From: Streptomyces akebiae
GTDB taxonomy: Bacteria; Actinomycetota; Actinomycetes; Streptomycetales; Streptomycetaceae
NCBI RefSeq assembly: GCF_019599145.1
Contig: NZ_CP080647.1
Location: forward strand, 1,054,001-1,118,000
DNA length: 64,000 nucleotides
Reading direction: 5' to 3'
Under the pieces are notes generated by a model, which was given only the letters and a program-made list of their open reading frames with translations, was not told where the DNA came from and made no database searches. Shown here piece after piece: positions 6,982 to 50,273 of the stretch. How positions within the stretch are numbered: the stretch's first letter is position 1; each line of letters opens with the position of its first letter. The translations under genes were made by a program, and so were the position numbers.

Positions 6982-7733
6982 TCCGGGTCGCGGCCGTCGG
7001 GGACATCCATCTGGGGCCGGACAGCCGGGGTCTGCTCCGCCCGGCGTTCGACACCCTGCCCGACCACGCCGACCTGCTGCTGCTCGCCGGGGACCTGACC
7101 CGGCACGGCACACCGGAGGAGGCGCGGGTCGTCGCCGACGAGGTGGCCGGGCTGCCGGTGCCGGTGGTCGCCGTCCTCGGCAACCACGACCATCACGCCG
7201 AGCGGCCCGAGGACGTGACGGCCGTGCTGCGGGACGCGGGTGTGACGGTGCTGGAGGGCGAGGGGACCGTCGTCCGGGTCGGCGGTGTACGGGTCGGGGT
7301 CGCCGGGACGAAGGGGTTCGGCGGCGGCTTCGCCGGGCGCAGCGGCAGCGAGTTCGGCGAACCCGAGATGAAGGCCTTCGTCCGTCACACCCGGGGGCTC
7401 GCGGACGGACTGCGCCGCGCGCTGGACGAGTTGGCGGAGGACGGCTGCGCGGTCCGTATCGCGCTCACGCACTTCTCCCCCGTACCGGACACGCTCGTCG
7501 GTGAGCCGCTGGAGATCTATCCCTTCCTGGGCAGTTACCTGCTGGCCGAGGCGATGGACGAGTCCGGCGCCGACCTCGCCGTCCACGGCCATGCCCACCT
7601 GGGCACCGAGCACGGCATCACCAGCGGTGGGGTGCGGGTGCGCAATGTCGCCCAGCCGGTGATCCGGCGTGCCTTCGCCGTGTACGGGCTGCCGGTGGAC
7701 GGGGACCGCGGGGCTGGCGGGGACGGTTCGTAG
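6978..7733 (+). CDS. Metallophosphoesterase
   Basis: 251 residues from GTG 6978, overlapping the previous stop by four bases. All calcineurin-like metallophosphoesterase motifs are present in order: VGDIHLG (Asp and His for metal 1), LLLAGDLTRHG (bridging Asp), LGNHDHH (Asn-His), ALTHFSP (His), and VHGHAHLG. These enzymes hydrolyse phosphomono- or phosphodiesters at a di-metal centre. No signal peptide, so it acts in the cytoplasm. The substrate is not evident; the co-transcribed nucleotidyltransferase and BON-like protein raise the possibility of a paired nucleotide add/remove function. A perfect 30-bp palindrome directly after the stop ends the operon. Confidence 0.88.
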   Translation: MIRVAAVGDIHLGPDSRGLLRPAFDTLPDHADLLLLAGDLTRHGTPEEARVVADEVAGLPVPVVAVLGNHDHHAERPEDVTAVLRDAGVTVLEGEGTVVRVGGVRVGVAGTKGFGGGFAGRSGSEFGEPEMKAFVRHTRGLADGLRRALDELAEDGCAVRIALTHFSPVPDTLVGEPLEIYPFLGSYLLAEAMDESGADLAVHGHAHLGTEHGITSGGVRVRNVAQPVIRRAFAVYGLPVDGDRGAGGDGS

Positions 7734-7763
7734 CCCCGGTCCCCCCGGCCGGGGGGACCGGGG
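7734..7763. terminator. Perfect 30-bp palindromic terminator
   Basis: CCCCGGTCCCCCCGG (7734-7748) is followed directly by its exact reverse complement (7749-7763), one base after the metallophosphoesterase stop. Confidence 0.8.
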
Positions 7764-8135
7764 GGCCGGGCCTGTCGCGCGGCACCCGGGCGTGAGCCGG
7801 ACGGCGGGGATACCGTCCGTCGACATGGGCGCGGACGGCCGAAGGGGAGGTCCCGGATGCACCGGCGTCCAAGCCGGTCGGGGCCTCCCACGCGGCGACC
7901 GTGGAGGGCTGACCCCCGGGAGACCGCACGGCTTCCAGTGCCGCGGCGGGCAACGTTCGTCCGTCAAGGAGCGGCGTCGGGGGGTACCTCCCGGTCGAGC
8001 GCAGCCGAGACCGGGGGAGCGTGCTCTCGGGGTGCCGGCCGGAAGTCCTCGTACTGGACGTACTTGGGCTTGCGGCCGGTGCGGCGAGAGGGCGTGCCGG
8101 GTGTCGCGACGGGGCGAACGTCGCCTGTCGTGGCC
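7764..8135. other. Intergenic region with imperfect hairpin
   Basis: About 370 bases between convergent genes. 7987-8019 forms a stem (CCTCCCGGTC against GACCGGGGGAG) around GAGCGCAGCC, a type of short intergenic palindrome common in Streptomyces genomes. On the minus strand at about 8045-8110 a protein-like segment (RRTGRKPKYVQYEDFRPAP) is readable, but it lacks a start codon and may be a gene remnant. Confidence 0.4.
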
Positions 8136-10040
8136 CTAGGCCACCGCGACCGGTGCTTCCGCCCCGGGTTCGTGGGCCGTCGACCTCTCGAACTGGGTCC
8201 GGTACAGCTCCGCGTAGCGTCCGCCCGCCGCGAGCAATTCCTCGTGCCGGCCACGCTCCACGATCCGGCCCGCCTCGACGACGAGGATCTGGTCGGCGGT
8301 GCGCACGGTCGACAGGCGGTGGGCGATGACCACGGCGGTCCTGCCCTCCAGCGCCTCCGCGAGGGCCTCCTGGACGGCGGCCTCCGAGGTGTTGTCGAGG
8401 TGGGCGGTGGCCTCGTCGAGGATCACGACGCGCTGGCGGGCCAGGAGCAGCCGGGCGATCGTCATGCGCTGGCGTTCGCCGCCGGAGAGCCGGTAGCCGC
8501 GTTCGCCGACGACGGTGTCGAGTTCGTCGGGCAGGGCGCGTACGAGGTCGTCGAGGCGGGCCCGGCGCAGGACGTCCCACAGGTCGTCGTCGCCGGCGTC
8601 GGGGCGGGCGAGGAGCAGGTTGGCGCGGACGGTGTCGTGGAAGAGGTGGCCGTCCTGGGTGACCATGCCGAGGGTGCCGCGCAGCGATGCCGCGCTGAGG
8701 TCGCGTACGTCGACGCCGCCGATGCGGACCGTGCCCGCGTCCGCGTCGTAGAGCCGGGGCAGCAGTTGGGCGACGGTGGACTTGCCGGCGCCCGAGGAGC
8801 CGACGAGGGCGACGGTCTGGCCGGGTTCGGCGCGGAAGGAGACGCCGTGCAGGACCTCGGTGCCGCCCCGGGTGTCGAGGGAGGCCACCTCCTCCAGTGA
8901 GGCGAGGGAGACCTTGTCGGCGGACGGGTAGCCGAAACGGACGTCGTCGAACTCGACGGCCACCGGGCCCTCGGGGACCTCGCGGGCGTCCGGTTTCTCC
9001 TCGATGAGCGGCTTGAGGTCCAGTACCTCGAAGACGCGCTCGAAGCTCACCAGGGCGCTCATGACCTCGACGCGTGCCCCGGCCAACGCGGTCAGCGGTG
9101 CGTACAGCCGGGTCAGCAGCAGGGCCAGGGACACGATCGCGCCCGCCTCCAGGGCGCCTCGCAGCGCGAACCATCCGCCGAGGCCGTACACCAGGGCGAG
9201 CGCGAGGGCCGAGACGAGGGTGAGGGCGGTGATGAACGCCGACTGTGCCATCGCCGTACGGATGCCGATGTCCCGTACCCGGCGGGCCCGTTCGGCGAAC
9301 TCGGCGGATTCGTCGTCGGGCCGGCCGAAGAGCTTGACGAGGGTGGCGCCGGGGGCGGAGAAGCGCTCGGTCATCCGGGTGCCCATGGCCGCGTTGAGGT
9401 CGGCCGCCTCCCGCTGCAGCCGGGCCATGCGCCGGCCCATGCGCCGGGCGGGGATCACGAAGACGGGCAGCAGGACGAGGGAGAGCAGGGTGATCTGCCA
9501 GGAGAGGGTGAGCATGACGGCGAGGGTGAGCAGCAGGGTGACGATGTTGCCGACCACTCCGGACAGGGTGTTGCTGAAGGCGCGTTGGGCACCGATGACG
9601 TCGTTGTTGAGACGACTGACGAGCGCTCCCGTACGAGTACGTGTGAAGAACGCGACCGGCATGCGCTGCACATGATCGAAGACGGCGGTTCGCAGATCGA
9701 GGATGAGACCCTCGCCGAGGGTCGCCGACAGACGTCGGGCCAGGAGGCCGAGCGCCGCCTCGGCGACGGCGATGACGGCGATGAGCATGGCAAGGCGGAC
9801 GACGAGGTCCTCGTCCCCGTCCGAGACGATCACGTCCACGACGTTCCCCGCGAGCACCGGCGTCGCCACGGCGAGCAGCGCGGTCACGACGCTGAGGCCG
9901 ACGAACCACGCGATACGGCGACGATGTGGACGGGCGAAGGCTCCGATACGCCGTAGCGTGGTCCGGGCGAGGGGGCGGCTGTGCTGCTGGGCGGTCATCA
10001 TGCCCTGCAGCTGGGTCCAGGCGGTGGTCTCCATACTCAT
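8136..10040 (-). CDS. ABC exporter, fused membrane and ATPase domains
   Basis: 634 residues from ATG 10040. The N-terminal half is an exporter-type six-helix domain (from about residue 25). The C-terminal ATPase has Walker A (GSSGAGKST), the signature LSGGERQRM, Walker B (RVVILDEATAHLD) and the H-loop (AHRLST). It should work as a homodimer or with a partner half-transporter, exporting drugs, lipids or peptides; the substrate is unknown. The start is chosen because a MerR-type promoter ends one to two bases upstream, which would give a leaderless mRNA; a longer frame upstream would run through that promoter. No MerR-family gene is adjacent. MerR/SoxR-type control suggests induction by a redox-active or toxic compound. 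Confidence 0.88.
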   Translation of the reverse strand: MSMETTAWTQLQGMMTAQQHSRPLARTTLRRIGAFARPHRRRIAWFVGLSVVTALLAVATPVLAGNVVDVIVSDGDEDLVVRLAMLIAVIAVAEAALGLLARRLSATLGEGLILDLRTAVFDHVQRMPVAFFTRTRTGALVSRLNNDVIGAQRAFSNTLSGVVGNIVTLLLTLAVMLTLSWQITLLSLVLLPVFVIPARRMGRRMARLQREAADLNAAMGTRMTERFSAPGATLVKLFGRPDDESAEFAERARRVRDIGIRTAMAQSAFITALTLVSALALALVYGLGGWFALRGALEAGAIVSLALLLTRLYAPLTALAGARVEVMSALVSFERVFEVLDLKPLIEEKPDAREVPEGPVAVEFDDVRFGYPSADKVSLASLEEVASLDTRGGTEVLHGVSFRAEPGQTVALVGSSGAGKSTVAQLLPRLYDADAGTVRIGGVDVRDLSAASLRGTLGMVTQDGHLFHDTVRANLLLARPDAGDDDLWDVLRRARLDDLVRALPDELDTVVGERGYRLSGGERQRMTIARLLLARQRVVILDEATAHLDNTSEAAVQEALAEALEGRTAVVIAHRLSTVRTADQILVVEAGRIVERGRHEELLAAGGRYAELYRTQFERSTAHEPGAEAPVAVA

Positions 10041-41446: not shown

Positions 41447-42697
41447 CTACGTGCCCATGACGTCGAGTCCGGGCCGGTGTGGCGAGGCGCGGGCGAGGTC
41501 GGCCCGGACCCGGGAGCGGATGTGCTGGATCAACGCCGCCAGGTCGGCGCAGTACACGGACGGATTGCGGAAGCCGCTGCCGGGGGCGTACCGGTGGGCG
41601 AAGAGTCCGCCCCCGCACACGGCGACCAGGGGGCAGCGTCCGCAGGTGGGTCCCAGTCCGACGGCGCCCGACTGCCTCTGACGGACCAGGGGTTCGTCCA
41701 GGACGTCGTCGAAACTGTGGCGGAACACGTCGAGCCCCGTCTCCGGCGCCCCTTCGTACGCGACCTTGAGGGAGTCGGACTGCTCGATGGAACCGTCGGT
41801 CTCGACGACGGCCAGCGTGGCGGGGGCCAGACCGACGGACTCGGTGCGCATCGCCCCCCCGAGGACACCGGCCATCAGCTCTTCGAAGAGCCGGATGCCC
41901 GTCTCCCGTCCGGGTGCGTCGTACCAACGGTCGAACACGCCCCGCAACCAGTCGGCGTAGGGAGTCCTGCCCGTGCGGGCCGTCGCTCCCCGGGTGGCCA
42001 CCGGCGGGGCGGTGGGTATCCGCCGTCGACGAAAGGCGAGACCCGGGGGTGGGGTCTCCCAAGTGCCGTGCGGCAGGAGGAGGTCGATGCGCGGAGGTCG
42101 CGAGGCCAGGAGCGCCTCGTAGGTCTCGACCGGGTCGTTGGCCAGGTCGACGGTGCACAGCAGACCCGCGTACAGGTGCCGGTACTCGGGCGCGACGAGC
42201 CGGGCGAGGCCGCTCATCACCTGTCCATGGCTCCCCCCGCCCTTCGGGAAGCGCCGATGCCGGTCGTGTCCCGCCCGGGTGCCGTCGAGGCTGACGCTGA
42301 CGCCGACCCGGTGGCGCCGCAGCACGTCCAGGATGTCGGGGGTGAGGAGCACGCCGTTGGTCTGCAGGGAGAAGCGGACGGGCACCCCCGCCTCCGCCAG
42401 CCCTCGCCCGAGGACCCCGAGCAGTTCCCCGAGCTGTCCGGCCCCGAGCAACAGCGGTTCCCCACCGTGCAGCACGACACGCACATCGGGCAGCCGGTGG
42501 GCCACGGCGTGCTCGGCGACCCGCCGGACCACCTGCTCGGCGACGGCCACGTCCATCACCCGGGGTTTGGCCTGCCAGCTGGTGTCGGCGGAGTGGTAGA
42601 CGTAGCAGTAGTCACAGTCGAGGTTGCAGCGGCTGTGCACCTTGAGGATGAACTGGCGCAGGGACACCGGAGGTTGCGGTACCGGCGGAGTGGTCAC
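41447..42697 (-). CDS. fxsB: FxsB-type radical SAM/SPASM peptide maturase, copy 1
   Basis: 416 residues from GTG 42697, overlapping the precursor stop by GTGA. Radical SAM motif CNLDCDYC (C24, C28, C31), then VVLHGGEPLLLG, VRFSLQTNGVLL and VGVSVSLDGTRAGHDRHRRF. A C-terminal SPASM-type cysteine set reads LGPTCGRCPLVAVCGGGLFA and NPSVYC. This is the FxsB branch, which modifies short precursors ending in Phe-x-Ser-x-x, in related three-residue cyclophane-forming enzymes by linking the aromatic ring to the third residue. It lacks the extra C-terminal domain seen in longer FxsB proteins. Near tRNA-Pro, and preceded by its precursor. Confidence 0.9.
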   Translation of the reverse strand: MTTPPVPQPPVSLRQFILKVHSRCNLDCDYCYVYHSADTSWQAKPRVMDVAVAEQVVRRVAEHAVAHRLPDVRVVLHGGEPLLLGAGQLGELLGVLGRGLAEAGVPVRFSLQTNGVLLTPDILDVLRRHRVGVSVSLDGTRAGHDRHRRFPKGGGSHGQVMSGLARLVAPEYRHLYAGLLCTVDLANDPVETYEALLASRPPRIDLLLPHGTWETPPPGLAFRRRRIPTAPPVATRGATARTGRTPYADWLRGVFDRWYDAPGRETGIRLFEELMAGVLGGAMRTESVGLAPATLAVVETDGSIEQSDSLKVAYEGAPETGLDVFRHSFDDVLDEPLVRQRQSGAVGLGPTCGRCPLVAVCGGGLFAHRYAPGSGFRNPSVYCADLAALIQHIRSRVRADLARASPHRPGLDVMGT

Positions 42698-42852
42698 CGC
42701 ATCGGCGCTTCAAAATCGATCGACGACTCGAACTCGGCGAAGTGTGTGCCGTCCGGATCGATGGCCTCGTGTTCGAGGCGGCGTAGGACGTGTCCCAGAG
42801 CGTTGTCCGCGACGACGAGGTCGGGGCGTGCGGGGGCGGTTGACGGAACCAT
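42694..42852 (-). CDS. fxsA: FxsA-type RiPP precursor, copy 1 (internal FxS motif)
   Basis: 52 residues, too short for ordinary gene finding; read from ATG 42852 to a TGA that overlaps the maturase GTG (GTGA). The leader is ARPDLVVADNALGHVLRRLE, the core HEAIDPDGTHFAEFESSI, and a tail DFEAPMR follows. The size, position and FESSI motif fit the FxSxx-COOH precursors, but in the usual form that motif ends the peptide; here it is followed by seven residues, including a second Phe-Glu. It may be a natural variant whose extra tail is removed, or a precursor with lost stop. No strong ribosome-binding site; GGGAG lies 16 bases upstream. Confidence 0.72.
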   Translation of the reverse strand: MVPSTAPARPDLVVADNALGHVLRRLEHEAIDPDGTHFAEFESSIDFEAPMR

Positions 42853-42933
42853 AGGGCTGACACCGTTCTCCCGGGAATCCGAACAGATGGGGGAAGCGTG
42901 CGGCGACGGCGATCACGCCGTGACTTCGATCGG

Positions 42934-42962
42934 AGAATAGCAACGAAACGCTAAGAAACGAC
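42934..42962 (-). promoter_or_regulatory. Candidate promoter of fxsA1-fxsB1
   Basis: Minus-strand TATTCT (42939-42934) in an AT-rich patch (about 42930-42990) 82 bases upstream of the precursor; the -35 box is not clear. The hairpin upstream should stop read-through from fxsT, so a separate promoter is needed here. Confidence 0.35.
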
Positions 42963-43063
42963 AGGAAGTGCCATAAACCGCTCAGAAGGTGGATCCAGTC
43001 ACCGACGGCGTCCGAGAGGGCCTCGTCTCGGCACGTCCAAGGTGAAGTGTCGGCGGGTGTACG

Positions 43064-43099
43064 CCGGGTCCCGCAGACCAACTGGTCTGCGGGACCCGG
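43064..43099. terminator. Terminator after fxsT
   Basis: CCGGGTCCCGCAGACC and GGTCTGCGGGACCCGG (16-bp perfect arms, AACT loop), 28 bases past the fxsT stop. Confidence 0.85.
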
Positions 43100-43126
43100 G
43101 CAGTGTGCGCGTTCACGCGGCGGACG

Positions 43127-46100
43127 TCAGGTCACGGGCGGCTCGATGTCCGCGTCGATGGGATGCCAGCGTGTGACGGCTCGGGTCATGGGGTGGTCAC
43201 CGCCTAGTTCCGCGCTGTCGACGGCACGGCGCTCCGCCTCGTCGTGGAGTCGTCCGGCGTCCGCCTGCGACCGCTCCGCCTCGGCCGAATCGTCGCGGCG
43301 GAGTTCGGCCGCGAGGTTCGACGCCCCGGCGATGGCGAGGTAGTGGTCGGGACCGAGTTCGCGGGTCAGTCCCTCGTACGCTTCGCGGCCCACCGCCAAC
43401 GCCCCCGCGTGGTCCCCGCTCTCGGACAGGTCTGTCGCGTGGTTCAGCATGCAGGTGAGGGTGTAGGGGTGGCTCGGCCCGAGGAGTCGGCGGAAGCGGT
43501 CGACCGTCCGGGTCGACAGTTCCAGAGCGGCCTCCGGCTCGCCGGTCAGCCGGAGCAGTACGGCGAGGTTGGCTCCGCAGGCGAGCGTGAAGACGTGGTC
43601 CGGGCCGAACCTGCGCTCGTAACTGCCCAGGGTCTCCTTGGCGAGTTCGCGCCCCCGTACGGACTCCCCTCGGTCGTACAGGTCCGAGCAGAGGTTCGTC
43701 GCGATGGCCAGGGTGTCGGGGTGCTCGGGGCCCAGCTGTTTCAGCGCGCGCTCGTAGATCTCGTCCGTCAGCTTGTACGCGTCCTCGTACCGGCCGAGTC
43801 GGCGGTAGAGGATCGCGGCTCCGAGAGAGGCGCGGAAGGTGATCAGATGGTCCGGGCCGAGCGCGCCCCGGCTGCGCTTGAGCGTGTCCTCGATGAGCTT
43901 CAGAGCCTCACGGAACGCACCGGCCGCGCGCAGGTCGCGTGCGTAGTTCGTGGCGGAGTTGAGGGTGGCACGCTGGTCGGGTCCGGAGATCTCCCGGCGC
44001 TGGGTGAGGATGTCCCGGTTGGTTTCGCGAGCCGCCTGCCGGTTGCCCGAGAGGAACTCGGAGACGGCGAGGTTGTTGGCCGCCGCGAGCGCGCGGGGGT
44101 GGTTCTCCCCGAAGACCCGGCGGGTGCGCCGCAGCGTCTCCCTGTCGCTCTCCATCGCGTCCGCGTACCGGCCGATGCTGCGCAGATCGGATCCGAGGCT
44201 CATGGCCGCGCCGAGCGTGTAGGGGTGTTCCTCGCCCAGGACCCGGCTGCCCCGCTCGTACACGTCGCGGGTCACCTCGTACGCCTCGGACAGCCGGCCC
44301 TGGTCGCGCAGCGCGTTGCCGAGTTCGGTGCGCAGACGCAGCACGAGGGCGTCGTCCTCGCCGAAGCGTGGCAGCCAGCTCTCCAGCACCCGCTCGGCCG
44401 TCTTGTTGGCCGTGTCCGCGTCGCCGCTGCGCCACAGGTAGCGGACGGTGTCACAGATCCACTGGCGCACCTCGAGGTTGTCGCTCTCCTCGGATTTGGT
44501 GGGCCACAGATGAGGGAGCAGCGCGGCATAGCTCTTCCAGTTCTCGGACTCGTCCGGGTCCTTCGGATTGGCCTGGCCCAGTACGGCCTGGGCCCGCCCC
44601 CTCATGGTGGCCTGTTGTTCGCCGGGGAGCTGGTCCCGGAGCACGTGTTGGATCAAGCGATGCATGGTCAGAGTGTCCGTCCGCTGGTCGGCCTGCGCGA
44701 GCCCATTTCGCACTATCTCCCCATAAAGTCGACTCATGAGCAGAGGGTCGGACAGGCTCCGGTCGTGGCGTTCGAGCAGTTCGAGTGCGGGTCGGCTGCT
44801 GAGTAGTTCCCGTGGAATGGGGTCAGGCCCGAAGAACGCGCACAGTTCGAGCAGGACGGCTGCGGCGGGTGTTCGAGTCTTCAACCGTTCGAGTGACCAG
44901 GTTGCCGCCGCCGACGTCGGATAGTCGGGGGCGGAGCGGCTCCCCAGGATCTCCGACATCTTGGTCCGCAGCATGTCCACGTAGGCGTCCACCGGCGTCG
45001 CCGACTCCAGCAGTGACGCGGCGGCCAGGCTCACCGCCAGCGGGAAGTCCCCGAGTTCCTCGGCCACCCGGGCGGCTTCCGCGGGCTCCAGCCCCTCGTT
45101 GTAGCGCCGCAGCAGAGCGACACTCTCCGAGCGGGTGAAGAGGTCCACCTCGACGCGCGCGGCTCGCTCCGCCCATGCCGGGTCCCGCGAGGTGATGAGG
45201 ACGTGCCGTCCCGGTCCGCTGACCGGGATCAGATTGTCCAGGTCGGCGGGTTTCTCGGCGTTGTCGTAGACGAGGAGCCAGCGGGAGAACGTCTCGGCGA
45301 GCCGCAGCCGCTCCAGCACGTCGTTGCACACCGCGGTCAGGTCCTTGCCGCCGACGGGGATGCCGAGGTGTACGGCCAGCGCGTTCAGGTCCTGTCGGAT
45401 CTGGGTGCGATCCGCCGCCTTGATCCACCAGATGAGGTCGTAGTCCGACTCGAACCGGTACGAGTACTCCAGTGCGACCTGTGTCTTTCCCACACCCCCG
45501 AGTCCGAACAGCGCCTGCGGGAGTACGGCCGTGGTGCCGGCGAGCAGACTGTCGCGCAGTCGTTCGATGGTGGTCCGGCGGCCGGTGAAGACGACATTGC
45601 GCTGGGGACGCCCCCCTATGAGCTGCGGCGGCGTCCCCGGGATCCGAGCCGCGGCGGCCAGAGCCGCGACGTCCGCGTGGGACCCCGACTCCGCCGGGCC
45701 GCCCCGGTCCACGGCGGTGAGCAGTCGTGTCACGGCCTCCTCGGCGGAGACTCCGGCGAGAGCGACCGCCGCGGGGGAGGCGAACTCCGGCGAGGGCGGC
45801 GAGTCGTCGATCCGCAGGGGGACGACCATGCCTATCTGCCCGGCCGGATCCTTGCGGCTGGTCTGGCGCCAGATCTCCCTCGCGGGCGGGAGCGCGACAT
45901 AACGCGGGGACAGCAGGACCAGCATGCGGCCCTCGCCGGCCAGCGTGCGTTCCAGCGCCGTCGGGTTCGTGGAGGTCGCCGGCAGGTCGTCCGACTCGAT
46001 CGGTGCCAGCGTCGCCTCGTAGCCGGCGGTCCGCAGCACCGTGACGATCCAGTCGGCCCACAGCCGGTCGGTCGCGGCGTAACTGACGTGGAGCGCCTTG

Positions 46101-47179
46101 CGAATCATCGGGGACGTGCGCTCGTACTCGGCGCGCAGCGTGAGCCGGTAGGCCTCCGGCATGTTGCTCAGACGGGAGACGCGGTGGTCGGTGAGCCGGG
46201 CGGTGAGCCGCTCGAAGGCGACGAGCAGCGTGCCGTCCTGCCGGCGCTCCCCCACAGTCGCGGGAATCTCCTCGTACGCGTAGCTGGCCTTGTACGGGAT
46301 CTCCACACTGCTCCAGTACTGGTCCTGCTCCTCGGGCGGCACCCAGTCGAGGAAGGGCGCGAAGAGGCTGCGCGCCTGGTACCGGCCCGCCTCCAGACGC
46401 GCGGCGCCCGCGTCCTCGACGCGCATGGGGACGGGCACGATGCGGATGTCGCGGTGGTCGTGGAAGTTGCCGGTGTTGCGTCGCTCCTCCACGTTGCGGC
46501 GGATCGCGTTCGCCACGCGGGCCGCGCCGTTGATCCCCTGTCGGCTGAGGGTGAAGCAGTCGACGACGATGTCCGGCATGACGACCGTGCAGATGCTCGC
46601 GGTGTCGCTGAGGCCGGTCCTGCTGTCGATCAGGACGTAGTCGTATCGGGCGGCCATGTCGTCCCGCAGGGCCCTGAGGAAGTCGGCACCGCCGGTGAGG
46701 AAGAAGGTGCTCCAGTCGAAGCTGCTGACGGCGGCCGCGTAGCCGGAGGCGTCCTGCACGCCGGCGGGCAGGAGGTCCAGTTTCCCGCCCGGTGGCAACC
46801 GTAGTTCCGTGCCGACGACATAGCGGTCGACCCGGGCCTGCTCGCGGATGTCGGGGGGCTCGGGCAGTCCGCCGCCGTTCGGCTGGGGCCGGGCCGTGCG
46901 CCCGTTCTCCACTCCGGAGCTCACCTGCGCCTCGCGCAGGGCGAACGCGCTGACCATCTCTATGATGCCGGCACTCTCGGTGAGTTCGGGGTCGGCGAGC
47001 AGGGGCTGGAGGTAGGTGTGGAGTCCGGGCGCTTCGAGGTCCCAGTCCACGACGAGGACCCGCAGACCGTTGCTGGCCAGGATCCAGGCGGTGTTGACCA
47101 GCGCCATGGTGCGCCCCGTGCCGCCCTTGAAGGAGTAGAAGGTGATGATGGTGCCGCGGCCGCGGTCGTCATGGGTCAT
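43127..47179 (-). CDS. fxsT: FxsT: ParA-like ATPase + TIR + NB-ARC + TPR signalling protein
   Basis: 1350 residues from ATG 47179, overlapping the fxsC stop by ATGA. Domains: residues 10-330, a ParA/MinD-like ATPase with deviant Walker A KGGTGRTM (18-25) and VVDWDLEAPG; about 362-490, a TIR domain (KALHVSYAATDRLWADWIVT); about 525-800, NB-ARC with GRRTTIERL, Walker A GLGGVGKT (559-566) and LVYDNAEKP; about 950-1330, kinesin-light-chain-like TPR repeats (GPDHVFTLACGANLAVLLR, GPEHPDTLAIATNLCSDLYD). This is the FxSxx-COOH system protein FxsT. The layout is that of a STAND sensor: TPRs sense, NB-ARC switches, TIR or the ATPase acts. What it senses is unknown. Confidence 0.9.
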   Translation of the reverse strand: MTHDDRGRGTIITFYSFKGGTGRTMALVNTAWILASNGLRVLVVDWDLEAPGLHTYLQPLLADPELTESAGIIEMVSAFALREAQVSSGVENGRTARPQPNGGGLPEPPDIREQARVDRYVVGTELRLPPGGKLDLLPAGVQDASGYAAAVSSFDWSTFFLTGGADFLRALRDDMAARYDYVLIDSRTGLSDTASICTVVMPDIVVDCFTLSRQGINGAARVANAIRRNVEERRNTGNFHDHRDIRIVPVPMRVEDAGAARLEAGRYQARSLFAPFLDWVPPEEQDQYWSSVEIPYKASYAYEEIPATVGERRQDGTLLVAFERLTARLTDHRVSRLSNMPEAYRLTLRAEYERTSPMIRKALHVSYAATDRLWADWIVTVLRTAGYEATLAPIESDDLPATSTNPTALERTLAGEGRMLVLLSPRYVALPPAREIWRQTSRKDPAGQIGMVVPLRIDDSPPSPEFASPAAVALAGVSAEEAVTRLLTAVDRGGPAESGSHADVAALAAAARIPGTPPQLIGGRPQRNVVFTGRRTTIERLRDSLLAGTTAVLPQALFGLGGVGKTQVALEYSYRFESDYDLIWWIKAADRTQIRQDLNALAVHLGIPVGGKDLTAVCNDVLERLRLAETFSRWLLVYDNAEKPADLDNLIPVSGPGRHVLITSRDPAWAERAARVEVDLFTRSESVALLRRYNEGLEPAEAARVAEELGDFPLAVSLAAASLLESATPVDAYVDMLRTKMSEILGSRSAPDYPTSAAATWSLERLKTRTPAAAVLLELCAFFGPDPIPRELLSSRPALELLERHDRSLSDPLLMSRLYGEIVRNGLAQADQRTDTLTMHRLIQHVLRDQLPGEQQATMRGRAQAVLGQANPKDPDESENWKSYAALLPHLWPTKSEESDNLEVRQWICDTVRYLWRSGDADTANKTAERVLESWLPRFGEDDALVLRLRTELGNALRDQGRLSEAYEVTRDVYERGSRVLGEEHPYTLGAAMSLGSDLRSIGRYADAMESDRETLRRTRRVFGENHPRALAAANNLAVSEFLSGNRQAARETNRDILTQRREISGPDQRATLNSATNYARDLRAAGAFREALKLIEDTLKRSRGALGPDHLITFRASLGAAILYRRLGRYEDAYKLTDEIYERALKQLGPEHPDTLAIATNLCSDLYDRGESVRGRELAKETLGSYERRFGPDHVFTLACGANLAVLLRLTGEPEAALELSTRTVDRFRRLLGPSHPYTLTCMLNHATDLSESGDHAGALAVGREAYEGLTRELGPDHYLAIAGASNLAAELRRDDSAEAERSQADAGRLHDEAERRAVDSAELGGDHPMTRAVTRWHPIDADIEPPVT

Positions 47180-48513
47180 CTGTCCTGCTCCTGCTCTTCA
47201 ATGGGAATCGGTTCGAAGAAGGGGCGGGCAGGTGTCGGCGGTGGTCCGGGCCTCGGCCGGTCGGACTGCGGTGGGGCCGGGCTCAGGACCGGAAGCGGAG
47301 GGGGCAGGCTCTGCGACATCTCCAGGAGACTGGTTCTGAGCGTGCCGAGGAAGGAGACGAGGTGGTTCTGCACCTTGACCACGACGGCATGCAACGCCCC
47401 GTCGAACTGGTCGGAGCTGACGCCGGACTGGAGCAGCGGCAGGGGGTCCCCCACTCCTTTCGCCCAGTTGAACGGAAGAGCGCCCCGGACCGCCTCCCAG
47501 TACGCCTTGCTACGGGGTCCGTCACCTGCTTCTTCCGGAGCGCACGGGACGATCGCCGCGCTGCCGGGATGGTTGCTCCGGTCGTAGGCGCGAAGAGCCC
47601 TGCCGAAGGGTTCGTCCCCGGCGGCCAGCGCCTCCACCAGGAGGACCGCGACCTGGCCGCGCCCGCGCGCCTCGTCCAGGCTGGCACTCATCGCGTCCGA
47701 GACGATCTCGGTCCGTACCGCGAAGCCACGCTCCTCCAGAAGCCGGCTCGCTCGCGCGGCCAGCGGATCCGAGCCGTCGGCGTGGTAGGGGTTCCAGTCC
47801 GTCGGACTGTCCCCGTGGCACCCCGGGTCCGTCGCCCCGTTGTGTGCTTCCGCCGAGGTCCGGGCGGCCAAGAACAGCAGGGCGTGACTGCCGGGTTCCG
47901 CGCGTTCGGCGGCGGACGGGAACGGGCCGGCGGCTTCCGGCGCGGTGAGGTCCAGGCCACTGACCGGCAGTATGCGGAAGTGCTCCGCGGCGACGAGGAC
48001 CTGGTGCGCGACGAGGTGGACGATGCGGCGGTACTCCTCGCCCCCCGGGTCCGCGGCCAGGATGCGGCGCAGGCCCCAGCGCGCGTAGTTCTCGCCGAAG
48101 TCGAAATTGTCGTACTGGATATGGGCCGCGCCCGCCGGAATGTTCTGTACCGGTTCCCACAGAACGGGAATGAGAGCCTTCGCGTCCACACCTGTGACGC
48201 TTCTGTGCCTGCGCTGTCTGTCCTCGAACGCCTTCCATTCGCGACCACAGAAGTCGCTTCTGAAGTACTCGGGTGTATACAACGCCAGCATGGTGCGGCA
48301 GCGACCGAGTGCCTCCCCCAGCGCGGCGTTCCAGTCCTGCCCCACCTGAATGGACTGGACGTCGAAGAAGGGACGGTCGAAGGGCACGGTATTGCCCTTG
48401 TGTAATCGCCGCAGTTCTTGGCGTAATTCCGCGCACAGATCGTCGTAGAACCGCTTGACGAGGACCCGGGGTCCGCGCCTGCGCGCATAGCTCAGGAAGA
48501 AATACGGTTCCAA
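47176..48513 (-). CDS. fxsC: FxsC: TIR-like protein of the FxSxx system
   Basis: 445 residues from TTG 48513, the only start candidate near the conserved beginning EPYFFLSYARRRG; GGGGG lies 6-10 bases upstream. The N-terminal 200 residues are TIR-like: FFLSYARR, GQDWNAALGEALGRCRTMLA, LYTPEYFRSDFCGREWKAFE with the Cys-x-x-Glu of TIR, and ALIPVLW. A second part (SDPLAARASRLLEERGFAVR, ALPFNWAKGVG) is conserved in FxsC, and the C-terminus is proline-rich. The stop overlaps the fxsT start, so the two are coupled. Whether the TIR is an NAD hydrolase or a scaffold cannot be told. Confidence 0.85.
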   Translation of the reverse strand: MEPYFFLSYARRRGPRVLVKRFYDDLCAELRQELRRLHKGNTVPFDRPFFDVQSIQVGQDWNAALGEALGRCRTMLALYTPEYFRSDFCGREWKAFEDRQRRHRSVTGVDAKALIPVLWEPVQNIPAGAAHIQYDNFDFGENYARWGLRRILAADPGGEEYRRIVHLVAHQVLVAAEHFRILPVSGLDLTAPEAAGPFPSAAERAEPGSHALLFLAARTSAEAHNGATDPGCHGDSPTDWNPYHADGSDPLAARASRLLEERGFAVRTEIVSDAMSASLDEARGRGQVAVLLVEALAAGDEPFGRALRAYDRSNHPGSAAIVPCAPEEAGDGPRSKAYWEAVRGALPFNWAKGVGDPLPLLQSGVSSDQFDGALHAVVVKVQNHLVSFLGTLRTSLLEMSQSLPPPLPVLSPAPPQSDRPRPGPPPTPARPFFEPIPIEEQEQDR

Positions 48514-48840
48514 CGAGCCCCCGACGTGCCGCGTCAGCGGGGTCCTTGTCGTGGGGTGGATGGATTCTCGCGCCTCGGAAGGTGGCCGACCCCGGCGGAA
48601 GTGCACGCGGTTCGGTCGCCTCCCACACCTCCTCACCCCCCAACCCTTACCCCTCAGCCATAGCCATTGGTTGGGTCGTGCCGAGACAGCAGACGATACC
48701 GCTGTCCGGCGCGACGGGCCCCGTTCCGGTAGGACCCGAATGCATGCTTCCCCGTTCTCCGCGTCCGACTCCCGTTCTCGGTATGTCCGTACGCGAAATC
48801 CGCGCACGCGGTGCGCGTGCGCCCTGAGTTGCGCTCCGGC
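48514..48840. other. Upstream region of fxsC, contains a hairpin at 48802-48822
   Basis: About 330 bases between the fxsB2 stop and fxsC start, on the same strand. GCGCACGCG-GTG-CGCGTGCGC (48802-48822) is a perfect 9-bp stem 19 bases after the fxsB2 stop and probably terminates it. The rest should contain the fxsC promoter; a clear -10/-35 pair is not visible. Confidence 0.5.
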
Positions 48841-50091
48841 TCAGAAGAGGGCTGACGGGTGATCCGGTCCGATGCGCGGTGCGCCCCCGCCGAGTCGTGC
48901 CACAGCGGTGTGGACCCGGGAGCGGACGTGACCGATGAAGGCGGCCAGGTCGTGACAGTAGACGGACGGGGTCTCGAAACCGGTGGTGGGGTGGTGGCGG
49001 TGGGTGTAGAGACCCCCACCGCAGACATCGGCCAGGGCGCAGTCCCGGCAGACCGGGCCCAGGCCGCGAAGCCCTGCCTGTCTGCGCCTGATGGTCTCCG
49101 TCGCCAACACCTCCGAGAAGGAGTGCCGGAAGACATCGAGGCCCGTCTCGGGAACTCCCTCACCGACGATCTTGAGGGAGTCGGAGTGTTCCAGCTCCCC
49201 GTCGGCCTCCACCACCACGAGGTCCACCGGCTCCAGTCCGAACACCTCGGTGTTCACGGCGCCGCCGAGCACTCCGGAGATGACCTCCTCGAACATCCGC
49301 ACCCCCGTCTCCTTGCGCGGCGCGTCGAACCAACGGTCGAACGCGGCGATGAGCCAGTGCGCGTAGGGGGTCGGCTCCCCGTCCGGCACGTCGCCAGGAG
49401 GCCGCGTCGGCGGAACCGACCGGTGTTCGAGCCCGGGCGGGGGATGCTTCCAGTCCCCGTGCCGAAGGGTGAAGTCCACCCGGGGCGGGGCGAATTCGAG
49501 GAGGGCCTCGTAGCTTTCGACGGGGTCGCTCTCCAGATCGACGGTACAGAGCAAACCCACGAACAGGTTCCGGTGGCGCGGTTCGTTGAGGCGGCGCAGC
49601 GCCGCCGCCACGCGCTCGTGGCTGGCACGGCCGTTCGCGAACCGCCGGTGTCTGTCGTGGGACGCGCGGGTGCCGTCCAGGCTGACCGCCACACCGACCC
49701 GGTGGTGGCTCAGCAGCGCGAGGAAAGCGTGGTCGAGGAGGACGCCGTTCGACTGCATCGAACAGCGCACCTCCACGACGGGTGCGAGGCGCTCGGCGAC
49801 GACGGCGAGCAGTTGAGCCAGGTGCCGCTTGCCGACCAGGAGGGGCTCTCCCCCGTGGAGGATCAGGCGCACCGTGGAAAGCCCGTGTTCACGGGCGTGT
49901 TCGGCGATCCGGTCCACTGTCTGCCGCACGGTGCCGAGGGACATCACTCCCGGCCGTCTGCGCCAGCTCTGGTCCGCGGCGAAGTACATATAGCAGTAGT
50001 CGCACGATAAGTTGCATAAACTGTGTATTTTCAGCAGGAACTGCCGGAAGGGAACTACAGGTAAGCCTCCCGGTTCCGCATCCGCCGTCAT
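48841..50091 (-). CDS. fxsB: FxsB-type radical SAM/SPASM peptide maturase, copy 2
   Basis: 416 residues from ATG 50091, overlapping the precursor stop by one base (TGATG). Radical SAM motif CNLSCDYC (C26, C30, C33), then LILHGGEPLLVG, VRCSMQSNGVLL and VGVAVSLDGTRASHDRHRRF; C-terminal SPASM-type cysteines LGPVCRDCALADVCGGGLYT and TPSVYC. Same length as copy 1 and clearly paralogous, but diverged across the whole protein, so not a recent duplication. Pairs with the canonical FESAL precursor. As a radical SAM enzyme it needs a [4Fe-4S] cluster and SAM. Confidence 0.9.
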   Translation of the reverse strand: MTADAEPGGLPVVPFRQFLLKIHSLCNLSCDYCYMYFAADQSWRRRPGVMSLGTVRQTVDRIAEHAREHGLSTVRLILHGGEPLLVGKRHLAQLLAVVAERLAPVVEVRCSMQSNGVLLDHAFLALLSHHRVGVAVSLDGTRASHDRHRRFANGRASHERVAAALRRLNEPRHRNLFVGLLCTVDLESDPVESYEALLEFAPPRVDFTLRHGDWKHPPPGLEHRSVPPTRPPGDVPDGEPTPYAHWLIAAFDRWFDAPRKETGVRMFEEVISGVLGGAVNTEVFGLEPVDLVVVEADGELEHSDSLKIVGEGVPETGLDVFRHSFSEVLATETIRRRQAGLRGLGPVCRDCALADVCGGGLYTHRHHPTTGFETPSVYCHDLAAFIGHVRSRVHTAVARLGGGAPRIGPDHPSALF

Positions 50092-50273
50092 CACAGCGCA
50101 CTTTCGAAGACGACGTCGGTCGTCCTCGACGAGTCGTCCCGCTCTTGGAGGTGACGCCGTACGGCCTGGCCGAACGCCGTGTCCTTGCCGGCCTCCGCCT
50201 CCAGCAGAGCCGGCGACACTTCGCGGATGTCGACCAGCTCTGTGCTGTTGTGGCTGTTCCGAGGCGCGTCCAT
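50091..50273 (-). CDS. fxsA: FxsA-type RiPP precursor, copy 2 (FESAL C-terminus)
   Basis: 60 residues from ATG 50273, chosen because GGGAGG lies 9-14 bases upstream; the same frame extends to an ATG at 50342 (83 residues) without a good ribosome-binding site. Leader: TELVDIREVSPALLEAEAG, DTAFGQAVRRHLQERDD; the last residues are TTDVVFESAL, giving exactly F-x-S-x-x at the carboxyl end as in FxSxx-COOH precursors. The stop overlaps the maturase start. Product is probably a small cyclophane-type crosslinked peptide; biological activity unknown. Confidence 0.85.
   Translation of the reverse strand: MDAPRNSHNSTELVDIREVSPALLEAEAGKDTAFGQAVRRHLQERDDSSRTTDVVFESAL

Follow-up and report, generated by a model that had tools for sequence, protein, structure and literature searches.

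An FxSxx locus with two precursor–maturase pairs in Streptomyces akebiae and its tandem counterpart in a relative

FxSxx systems were described by Kaur et al. (2020, eLife, PMC7159879), whose section on them names a zincin-like metallopeptidase as core partner without mentioning double arrays, reciprocal loss or tailed precursors with an internal FxS; in the material analysed here these last three features are present, whereas no HExxH domain was found at the locus. This locus occupies positions 41447–50273 of a 64,000-nucleotide stretch of Streptomyces akebiae DNA (NZ_CP080647.1, positions 1,054,001–1,118,000; hereafter the window), and carries two precursor–maturase pairs, fxsA2–fxsB2 and fxsA1–fxsB1, around one fxsC–fxsT pair, an arrangement for which no paper was found in the open literature. 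Our comparison with related species reveals a complete tandem of two fxs systems in one relative and different losses in others. On balance, we consider it probable that the locus is the remnant of two such systems, in which fxsC1–fxsT1 was lost and fxsA1–fxsB1 was kept and would now most likely feed FxsC2–FxsT2.

Three-residue cyclophane-forming enzymes such as MscB yield triceptides with a C4(Phe)–Cβ(Ser) bond (PMC11002830). Similarly, FxsB1 and FxsB2 belong to a family called cyclophane-forming by NCBIfam, and both precursors hold F-E-S; by comparison, FxsA1 has seven residues behind its FESSI, including a second aromatic-x-Ala (F-E-A). The InterPro entry of MscB, IPR026335, is presumably the FxsB family. 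The nearest solved relative of FxsB1 by sequence is ChlB (E 2e-70; PDB 9gm3, cited in PMC12636437). In fused radical SAM/aKG-HExxH enzymes a hydroxylase part is added, which is found in the two long FxsB proteins scanned, but not in either maturase of the window. FxsC differs from SPARTA TIR-APAZ, AbTir and the TIR-NLRs of plants in that it stands as a protein of its own and has a second Rossmann-like domain, and its NADase role is predicted.

Tandem arrays and their losses

The fxs genes of the window lie on the minus strand in the order fxsA2 (50273–50091), fxsB2 (50091–48841), fxsC (C2, 48513–47176), fxsT (T2, 47179–43127), fxsA1 (42852–42694) and fxsB1 (42697–41447), and a tRNA-Pro(GGG) gene (41399–41325, minus strand) bounds the array. 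The original prediction, made from the letters of the window, had the gene order, strand and coordinates right, as well as the overlaps of each precursor gene with its maturase gene (one base for fxsA2/fxsB2 and four bases for fxsA1/fxsB1). FxsT relatives were found at 59 loci in a scan that covered each species by one genome; six of these are orthologues of the window fxsT (68–82%), and genome searches added G007 (72%), G108, G350, G228 and G254. G296, G248 and G275 were treated as S. scabiei, S. caniscabiei and S. hyaluromycini, respectively, and counted once. This gives 12 species including that of the window, and 11 loci with known surroundings, as the S. tailanensis contig ends behind fxsT.

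A full double array, A2-B2-C2-T2-C1-T1-A1-B1 followed by tRNA-Pro, is present in one of the 11 loci (L158 of G350). Four loci, those of the window, S. scabiei, S. stelliscabiei and G108, hold A2-B2-C2-T2 and A1-B1 without C1-T1, while the locus of S. caniscabiei reads A2-T2-C1-T1-A1-B1, with B2-C2 gone. The remaining five (S. neyagawaensis, G228, G254, S. hyaluromycini and G007) have A2-B2-C2-T2 alone. C1-T1 is accordingly counted as present in two of the 11 loci (L158 and S. caniscabiei) and as decayed or gone in four. The tRNA-Pro gene lies closely behind fxsB1 or fxsT2 in eight relatives; among the single-system loci it follows in S. neyagawaensis, G228 and G254, and the stretches for S. 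hyaluromycini and G007 contain no tRNA.

The 274-base gap between fxsT and fxsA1 in the window (42853–43126, minus strand) corresponds to the position of fxsC1–fxsT1 in loci L158 and L055. No C1 or T1 relic was detected in this gap, and relics are found in the corresponding gaps of other species: T1 relics reach 65 bits in S. stelliscabiei (best of shuffles, 30 at n = 100 and 32 at n = 200) and 53 bits in S. scabiei (37 at n = 100 and 29 at n = 200), and C1 relics reach 45 bits in G108 (30 at n = 200). The matches of the gap DNA to L158 follow its C1-T1 order, and the pieces retained differ by species. In S. neyagawaensis, the DNA that is found behind the fxsB1 stop elsewhere stands behind fxsT2. 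In S. caniscabiei, the relics of B2 and C2 are weak and short, with no piece above 34 bits (shuffle maximum, 30), and the loss is therefore read mainly from the whole genome, whose four FxsB and five FxsC N-terminal matches include neither B2 nor C2.

In the reading drawn from the original prediction, one receptor with two peptide arms would be the normal form of the locus. Such an arrangement is seen in 4 of the 11 orthologous loci, but L158 and S. caniscabiei have a second C-T pair, relics of which persist in three of the four two-arm loci, and we find this reading barely credible. Because the arrangement would be what remains of two tandem systems, the service of one signalling protein to two peptides, plausible in itself, is better seen as an after-effect of gene loss. 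Whether most homologous loci carry a single pair, an outcome that the prediction had named as speaking against it, is a borderline matter, with 5 of 11 loci, or 6 if S. caniscabiei, which has one maturase, is counted.

We propose that two complete fxs systems, A2-B2-C2-T2 and then C1-T1-A1-B1, stood in tandem before tRNA-Pro(GGG), and that the two, as neighbours, had merged at this one chromosome site before lineages shed different parts; in the window lineage, C1-T1 would have been lost and A1-B1 retained under selection. In the six-species B1 tree, G350 groups with G108, S. stelliscabiei and S. scabiei (93/98, not starred), and the window and S. caniscabiei lie outside. Because of this placement of G350, C1-T1 would have been lost at least twice, provided that the B1 tree is correct and that there was no regain. 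The C1 and T1 genes of S. caniscabiei cluster with loci L111, L118 and L119; two of these have fxsA before fxsC (A-C-T-B).

In a genus sample of 101 genomes, FxsB is above cut-off in 67 and an FxsT-family protein in 95, and two FxsB genes lie within 10 kb of each other in four (that of the window, G068, G079 and G091; list read by eye). The tandem in the latter three genomes is a different one, with one FxsT-family protein between both FxsB and another further on (984–1545 residues). The corresponding loci (L122 in G068, L121 in G079 and L120 in G091) have the order B-T-B'-...-T'', with a TIR protein behind B' in L120, and their receptors match the window FxsT only from the TIR domain onward. 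As these loci hold another fxs-like tandem, the comparison suggests that fxs tandems arise more than once.

Maturases, precursors and selection on the orphan pair

All fxs proteins of the locus except FxsA1 pass their NCBIfam cut-offs. FxsB1 and FxsB2 are predicted radical SAM/SPASM maturases of 416 residues each that score 470.1 and 463.7 bits, respectively, with TIGR04269 (cut-off 370), and the CxxxCxxC and SPASM cysteines, read by eye, are present in both. The HExxH hydroxylase part (TIGR04267) is absent among the 25 best families for each of them and present in the long FxsB of locus L113 in the same genome. The two maturases are 57% identical over 391 columns. In the FxsB tree, B1 (four species) and B2 (seven species) form separate clades, each supported at 100/100, and the node joining them is weak (91/65). 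These separate clades rule out a recent fxsA–fxsB duplication and bear out the expectation of two maturases that are diverged and not of recent origin, each paired with a precursor, beside one FxsC–FxsT pair. B1 was not found outside Streptomyces: of 395 relatives, eight match at E ≤ 1e-140, and every one of these belongs to the genus of the window; among the eight, B1 proper is present in the window and G108 alone. At 78% identity or more, B1 occurs in 5 of 392 genomes of the genus. Among five plasmid records, no FxsB exceeds 60% identity to B1, and for the fxs proteins the padloc models gave nothing beyond a general viperin-type radical SAM and a ParA-like candidate.

The ratio of nonsynonymous to synonymous substitution rates (dN/dS) of B1 is 0.15–0.30 in all 15 pairs among six species, as compared with 0.13–0.23 for T2 and 0.16–0.25 for B2. 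It is 0.17–0.30 across the six pairs of species that both lack C1-T1 and 0.19 for the single pair in which both have it, and the private changes of B1 are mostly silent (14 nonsynonymous versus 67 synonymous on six branches). By its substitution pattern the orphan B1 is under purifying selection, and the decay of copy 1 that the prediction had listed among outcomes unfavourable to it is not what we find. One may still suspect that A1-B1 is a leftover in early decay, as its partner C1-T1 is decayed or gone in four species and the top B1 ratios (up to 0.30) occur in pairs with S. scabiei, which itself lacks C1-T1. The B1 frames are, however, intact in all six species, the ratios without C1-T1 span that of the pair retaining it, silent changes predominate and the FES motif persists in every FxsA1 compared (see below), so that we regard early decay as very improbable.

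FxsA2, a 60-residue precursor, ends in VVFESAL and thus has the C-terminal FESAL of the FxSxx-COOH type; it passes TIGR04268 (30.2 bits against a cut-off of 28), and its C-terminus conforms to VF[EDN]SAL in all 12 species, the window included. S. caniscabiei has an intact A2 without B2, although a gene of 60 codons is too short for a firm selection test. FxsA1 has 52 residues and had been taken for a C-terminal FxSxx peptide as well, which did not hold: it ends FESSIDFEAPMR and scores 14 bits with TIGR04268, below the cut-off. The seven residues DFEAPMR come after FESSI, so that the C-terminal motif of the family is missing. Judged by position and conservation, FxsA1 works like a precursor, yet it is a non-member by this model. 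FES is retained in 8 of 8 FxsA1 sequences (the window, five related loci and two database proteins), each with a tail. After FES, the sequence continues SIDFEAPMR in the window and in the database proteins of S. deccanensis and S. europaeiscabiei, SIDFEA in L158, TIYAESPMR in S. caniscabiei, SLEYEAPV in S. stelliscabiei, SLPSEARM in S. scabiei and ALDYEAPK in G108. A second aromatic-E-A is thus found in six of the eight tails, which makes a second cross-link in FxsA1 possible, as a guess from the tails.

Precursors of other loci also depart from the canonical end. The L111 precursor ends AAFASALL, one residue beyond FxSxx, and is still above the TIGR04268 cut-off. At locus L129 (G029), 16 kb gave an FxsB gene at 7697–8926 but neither fxsC nor fxsT, and a small frame upstream of this FxsB ends in FNSSAPSD, an FxS followed by a tail.

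The tail, which sets FxsA1 apart from FxSxx-COOH and would fit a different fate, raises the possibility that A1-B1 makes a stand-alone peptide unlinked to FxsC and FxsT, for instance a released one. FxsB without FxsT or FxsC at L129 is in keeping with this, as is a conserved promoter-like block, GCTATTCTCCG (42931–42941, minus strand), upstream of fxsA1, which is similar in 6 of 6 aligned species whether C1-T1 is present or absent. By contrast, A1-B1 stands directly behind C1-T1 in L158 and S. caniscabiei, and no protease or exporter was recognised at the locus itself or in a scan of its eight neighbours in the window. We therefore judge a stand-alone peptide quite unlikely.

FxsT, FxsC and the fxsC leader

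FxsT has 1350 residues, comprising an N-terminal MinD/ParA fold (KGGTGRT), a TIR domain, an NB-ARC/STAND domain and TPRs (matches to NF040586, NF047398, PF13676 and PF13424). It scores 920.9 bits with NF040586 (cut-off 300), and its TPRs are above cut-off and its NB-ARC part slightly below that of Pfam (21.2 versus 23.5). FxsC passes both of its models, NF040588 (188.4 bits, cut-off 130) and TIGR04276 (82.2 bits, cut-off 55). It most likely starts at the TTG at 48513, which gives 445 residues; a long GTG frame was considered as the start and rejected, being closed by stops in two of eight relatives. FxsC has a TIR fold, and C-x2-E is found in 27 of 28 FxsC proteins, mostly followed by W. We take the glutamate to be the catalytic residue of TIR NADases. 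In the TIR domain of FxsT, the position of C-x2-E is variable and not conserved.

Residues ~600–850 of the window FxsT (~44630–45380) are unusually divergent from their orthologues at both the silent and the amino-acid level, a pattern as after an allele replacement in the NB-ARC part. A T2/T1 recombinant produced by the deletion was considered and rejected, since this part is not consistently nearer T1 than is the T2 of G108: compared block by block with that T2, it is less close to T1 or about as close in most cases, and closer in block 661–720.

Directly upstream of fxsC lies a conserved non-coding leader (48514–48728, minus strand), of which ~210 bases are 87–91% identical in eight relatives and 131–187 bases are 73–76% identical in two further ones; by comparison, the fxsB2 DNA of five leader-bearing species is 74–79% identical to that of the window. 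The leader matches no Rfam family. In a consensus fold derived from the same sequences, 96% of cells are paired and six pairs show changes in both partners, a number reached by 2 of 500 shuffles, and the fold of the window leader is just 1.6 standard deviations better than shuffles; the leader is therefore still a candidate structured RNA, despite covariation above shuffles. In a model search of 37 sources, only two leaders match, those of fxsC2 in the window and in L158, with none before fxsC1 or any other fxsC and none in S. caniscabiei, and under strict filters 3 of 150 genomes matched, once each, before fxsC2.

Terminators had been proposed after fxsB2 and fxsT. The latter stands as a terminator-like hairpin with a 15-bp stem (43064–43099, minus strand), while the hairpin behind fxsB2 has just 7 bp and lies in an unconserved part of the gap. 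A terminator scan requiring a T run found none on the strand of the locus. Self-complementary repeats occur downstream of fxsT2 in five of seven intervals compared.

Receptor choice and the role of the orphan pair

The 10.5-Mb genome of the window encodes seven FxsB above cut-off, five FxsT and five FxsC (C-terminal model), with six matches to the FxsC N-terminal model. Three of its FxsB are open frames of 783–848 residues, and the sole one scanned, that of L113, has the aKG-HExxH part. The genome also contains L111 (G000:C1:3597500-3604100), another short-FxsB system with the order A-C-T-B and a T1-clade receptor. In two long-FxsB loci elsewhere, an aminoglycoside 3-N-acetyltransferase-family gene (PF02522) lies between fxsB and fxsC (L058, 7688–8512; L060, 7599–8402), whereas the window locus has none there. 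No vWA/MoxR-type partner of the VMAP ternary system was recognised by Pfam among the eight neighbours, one of which is without any match.

These copies raise the question of whether A1-B1 acts in trans via another fxsC–fxsT, such as the A-C-T-B locus at 3.60 Mb, in which case its place beside C2-T2 would be just history. The T1-clade receptor at 3.60 Mb, together with five FxsT and six FxsC N-terminal matches in one genome, is consistent with such a partner. S. stelliscabiei, S. scabiei and G108, however, each with five FxsB and four FxsT, keep A1-B1 and have no T1-type receptor as judged by identity to the 3.60-Mb FxsT (T1, 50–52%; T2, 45–47%; long types, mostly 43% or less). In such C1-T1-less genomes, T2 is the near receptor for A1-B1. 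A trans partner is thus unlikely in our view, while it is the rival that we take most seriously.

We favour the remnant of two tandem systems, and a mechanism can be outlined for it. FxsB would link the Phe ring to the Ser β-carbon within the F-E-S of the precursor, a chemistry known for the family. As no protease or exporter was recognised, the modified peptide probably remains in the cell, where FxsT, a STAND/NLR-like ATPase, would bind it as a ligand; the kinesin-light-chain-like TPR array of FxsT appears suited to short peptides. A changed peptide state, whether through an attack on the cell or through loss of the maturase or of the peptide, may be the trigger upon which FxsT assembles and its own TIR domain gathers FxsC. 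The TIR domain of FxsC, with the C-x2-E of NAD+-cleaving TIR domains, would then cause NAD+ loss or produce a nucleotide signal. The orphan A1-B1 would most likely feed C2-T2, such that two different peptides would pass through one receptor. The sequences themselves show the tandem form in a relative, the losses and the constraint on B1, whereas the cross-linking chemistry, the role of the peptide as ligand, the NADase output and the link of A1-B1 to C2-T2 are inferences.

Several observations weigh against this reading. The window genome retains the A-C-T-B locus with a T1-clade T, which makes a trans partner possible there, and long-type FxsT copies (three each) persist in the C1-T1-less S. 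stelliscabiei, S. scabiei and G108. The dN/dS values average the time before and after the loss of C1-T1. The trees conflict, in that T2 joins S. caniscabiei to S. scabiei and B1 and a flanking gene place it near the window (dS of 0.15 for the flanking gene and 0.25 for B1, versus 0.69 for T2); parts of the array have therefore been exchanged, and how many losses occurred is less certain. The window FxsT carries E at the C-x2-E place, so its TIR domain is not proved inactive. Finally, private amino-acid changes of T2 are in excess in the window and S. caniscabiei relative to a pool of four other species (Fisher's test, p = 0.0007 and 0.00003, respectively; 0.07 for G350), which speaks against simple constancy and could be relaxation; those of the window fall mostly in the NB-ARC part, where silent changes accumulate too.

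Tentatively, we suggest that fxs systems are modular, with a swappable maturase and TIR effector: two peptides would act via one STAND receptor in the window, and B1 and C1 of S. caniscabiei would serve two precursors and two receptors. If this is true, the reciprocal losses would prove, by natural genetics, that partners can be exchanged in a peptide-gated bacterial TIR/STAND alarm. Related species that differ in the surviving parts of two tandem systems offer ready-made comparisons: which FxsA each FxsB can process, which FxsT each FxsC can serve, and whether a precursor that lacks a receptor of its own is still of consequence. If FxsT is gated by these peptides, cross-linked peptides would serve a bacterial NLR-like receptor as ligands inside the cell and would not be secreted products.

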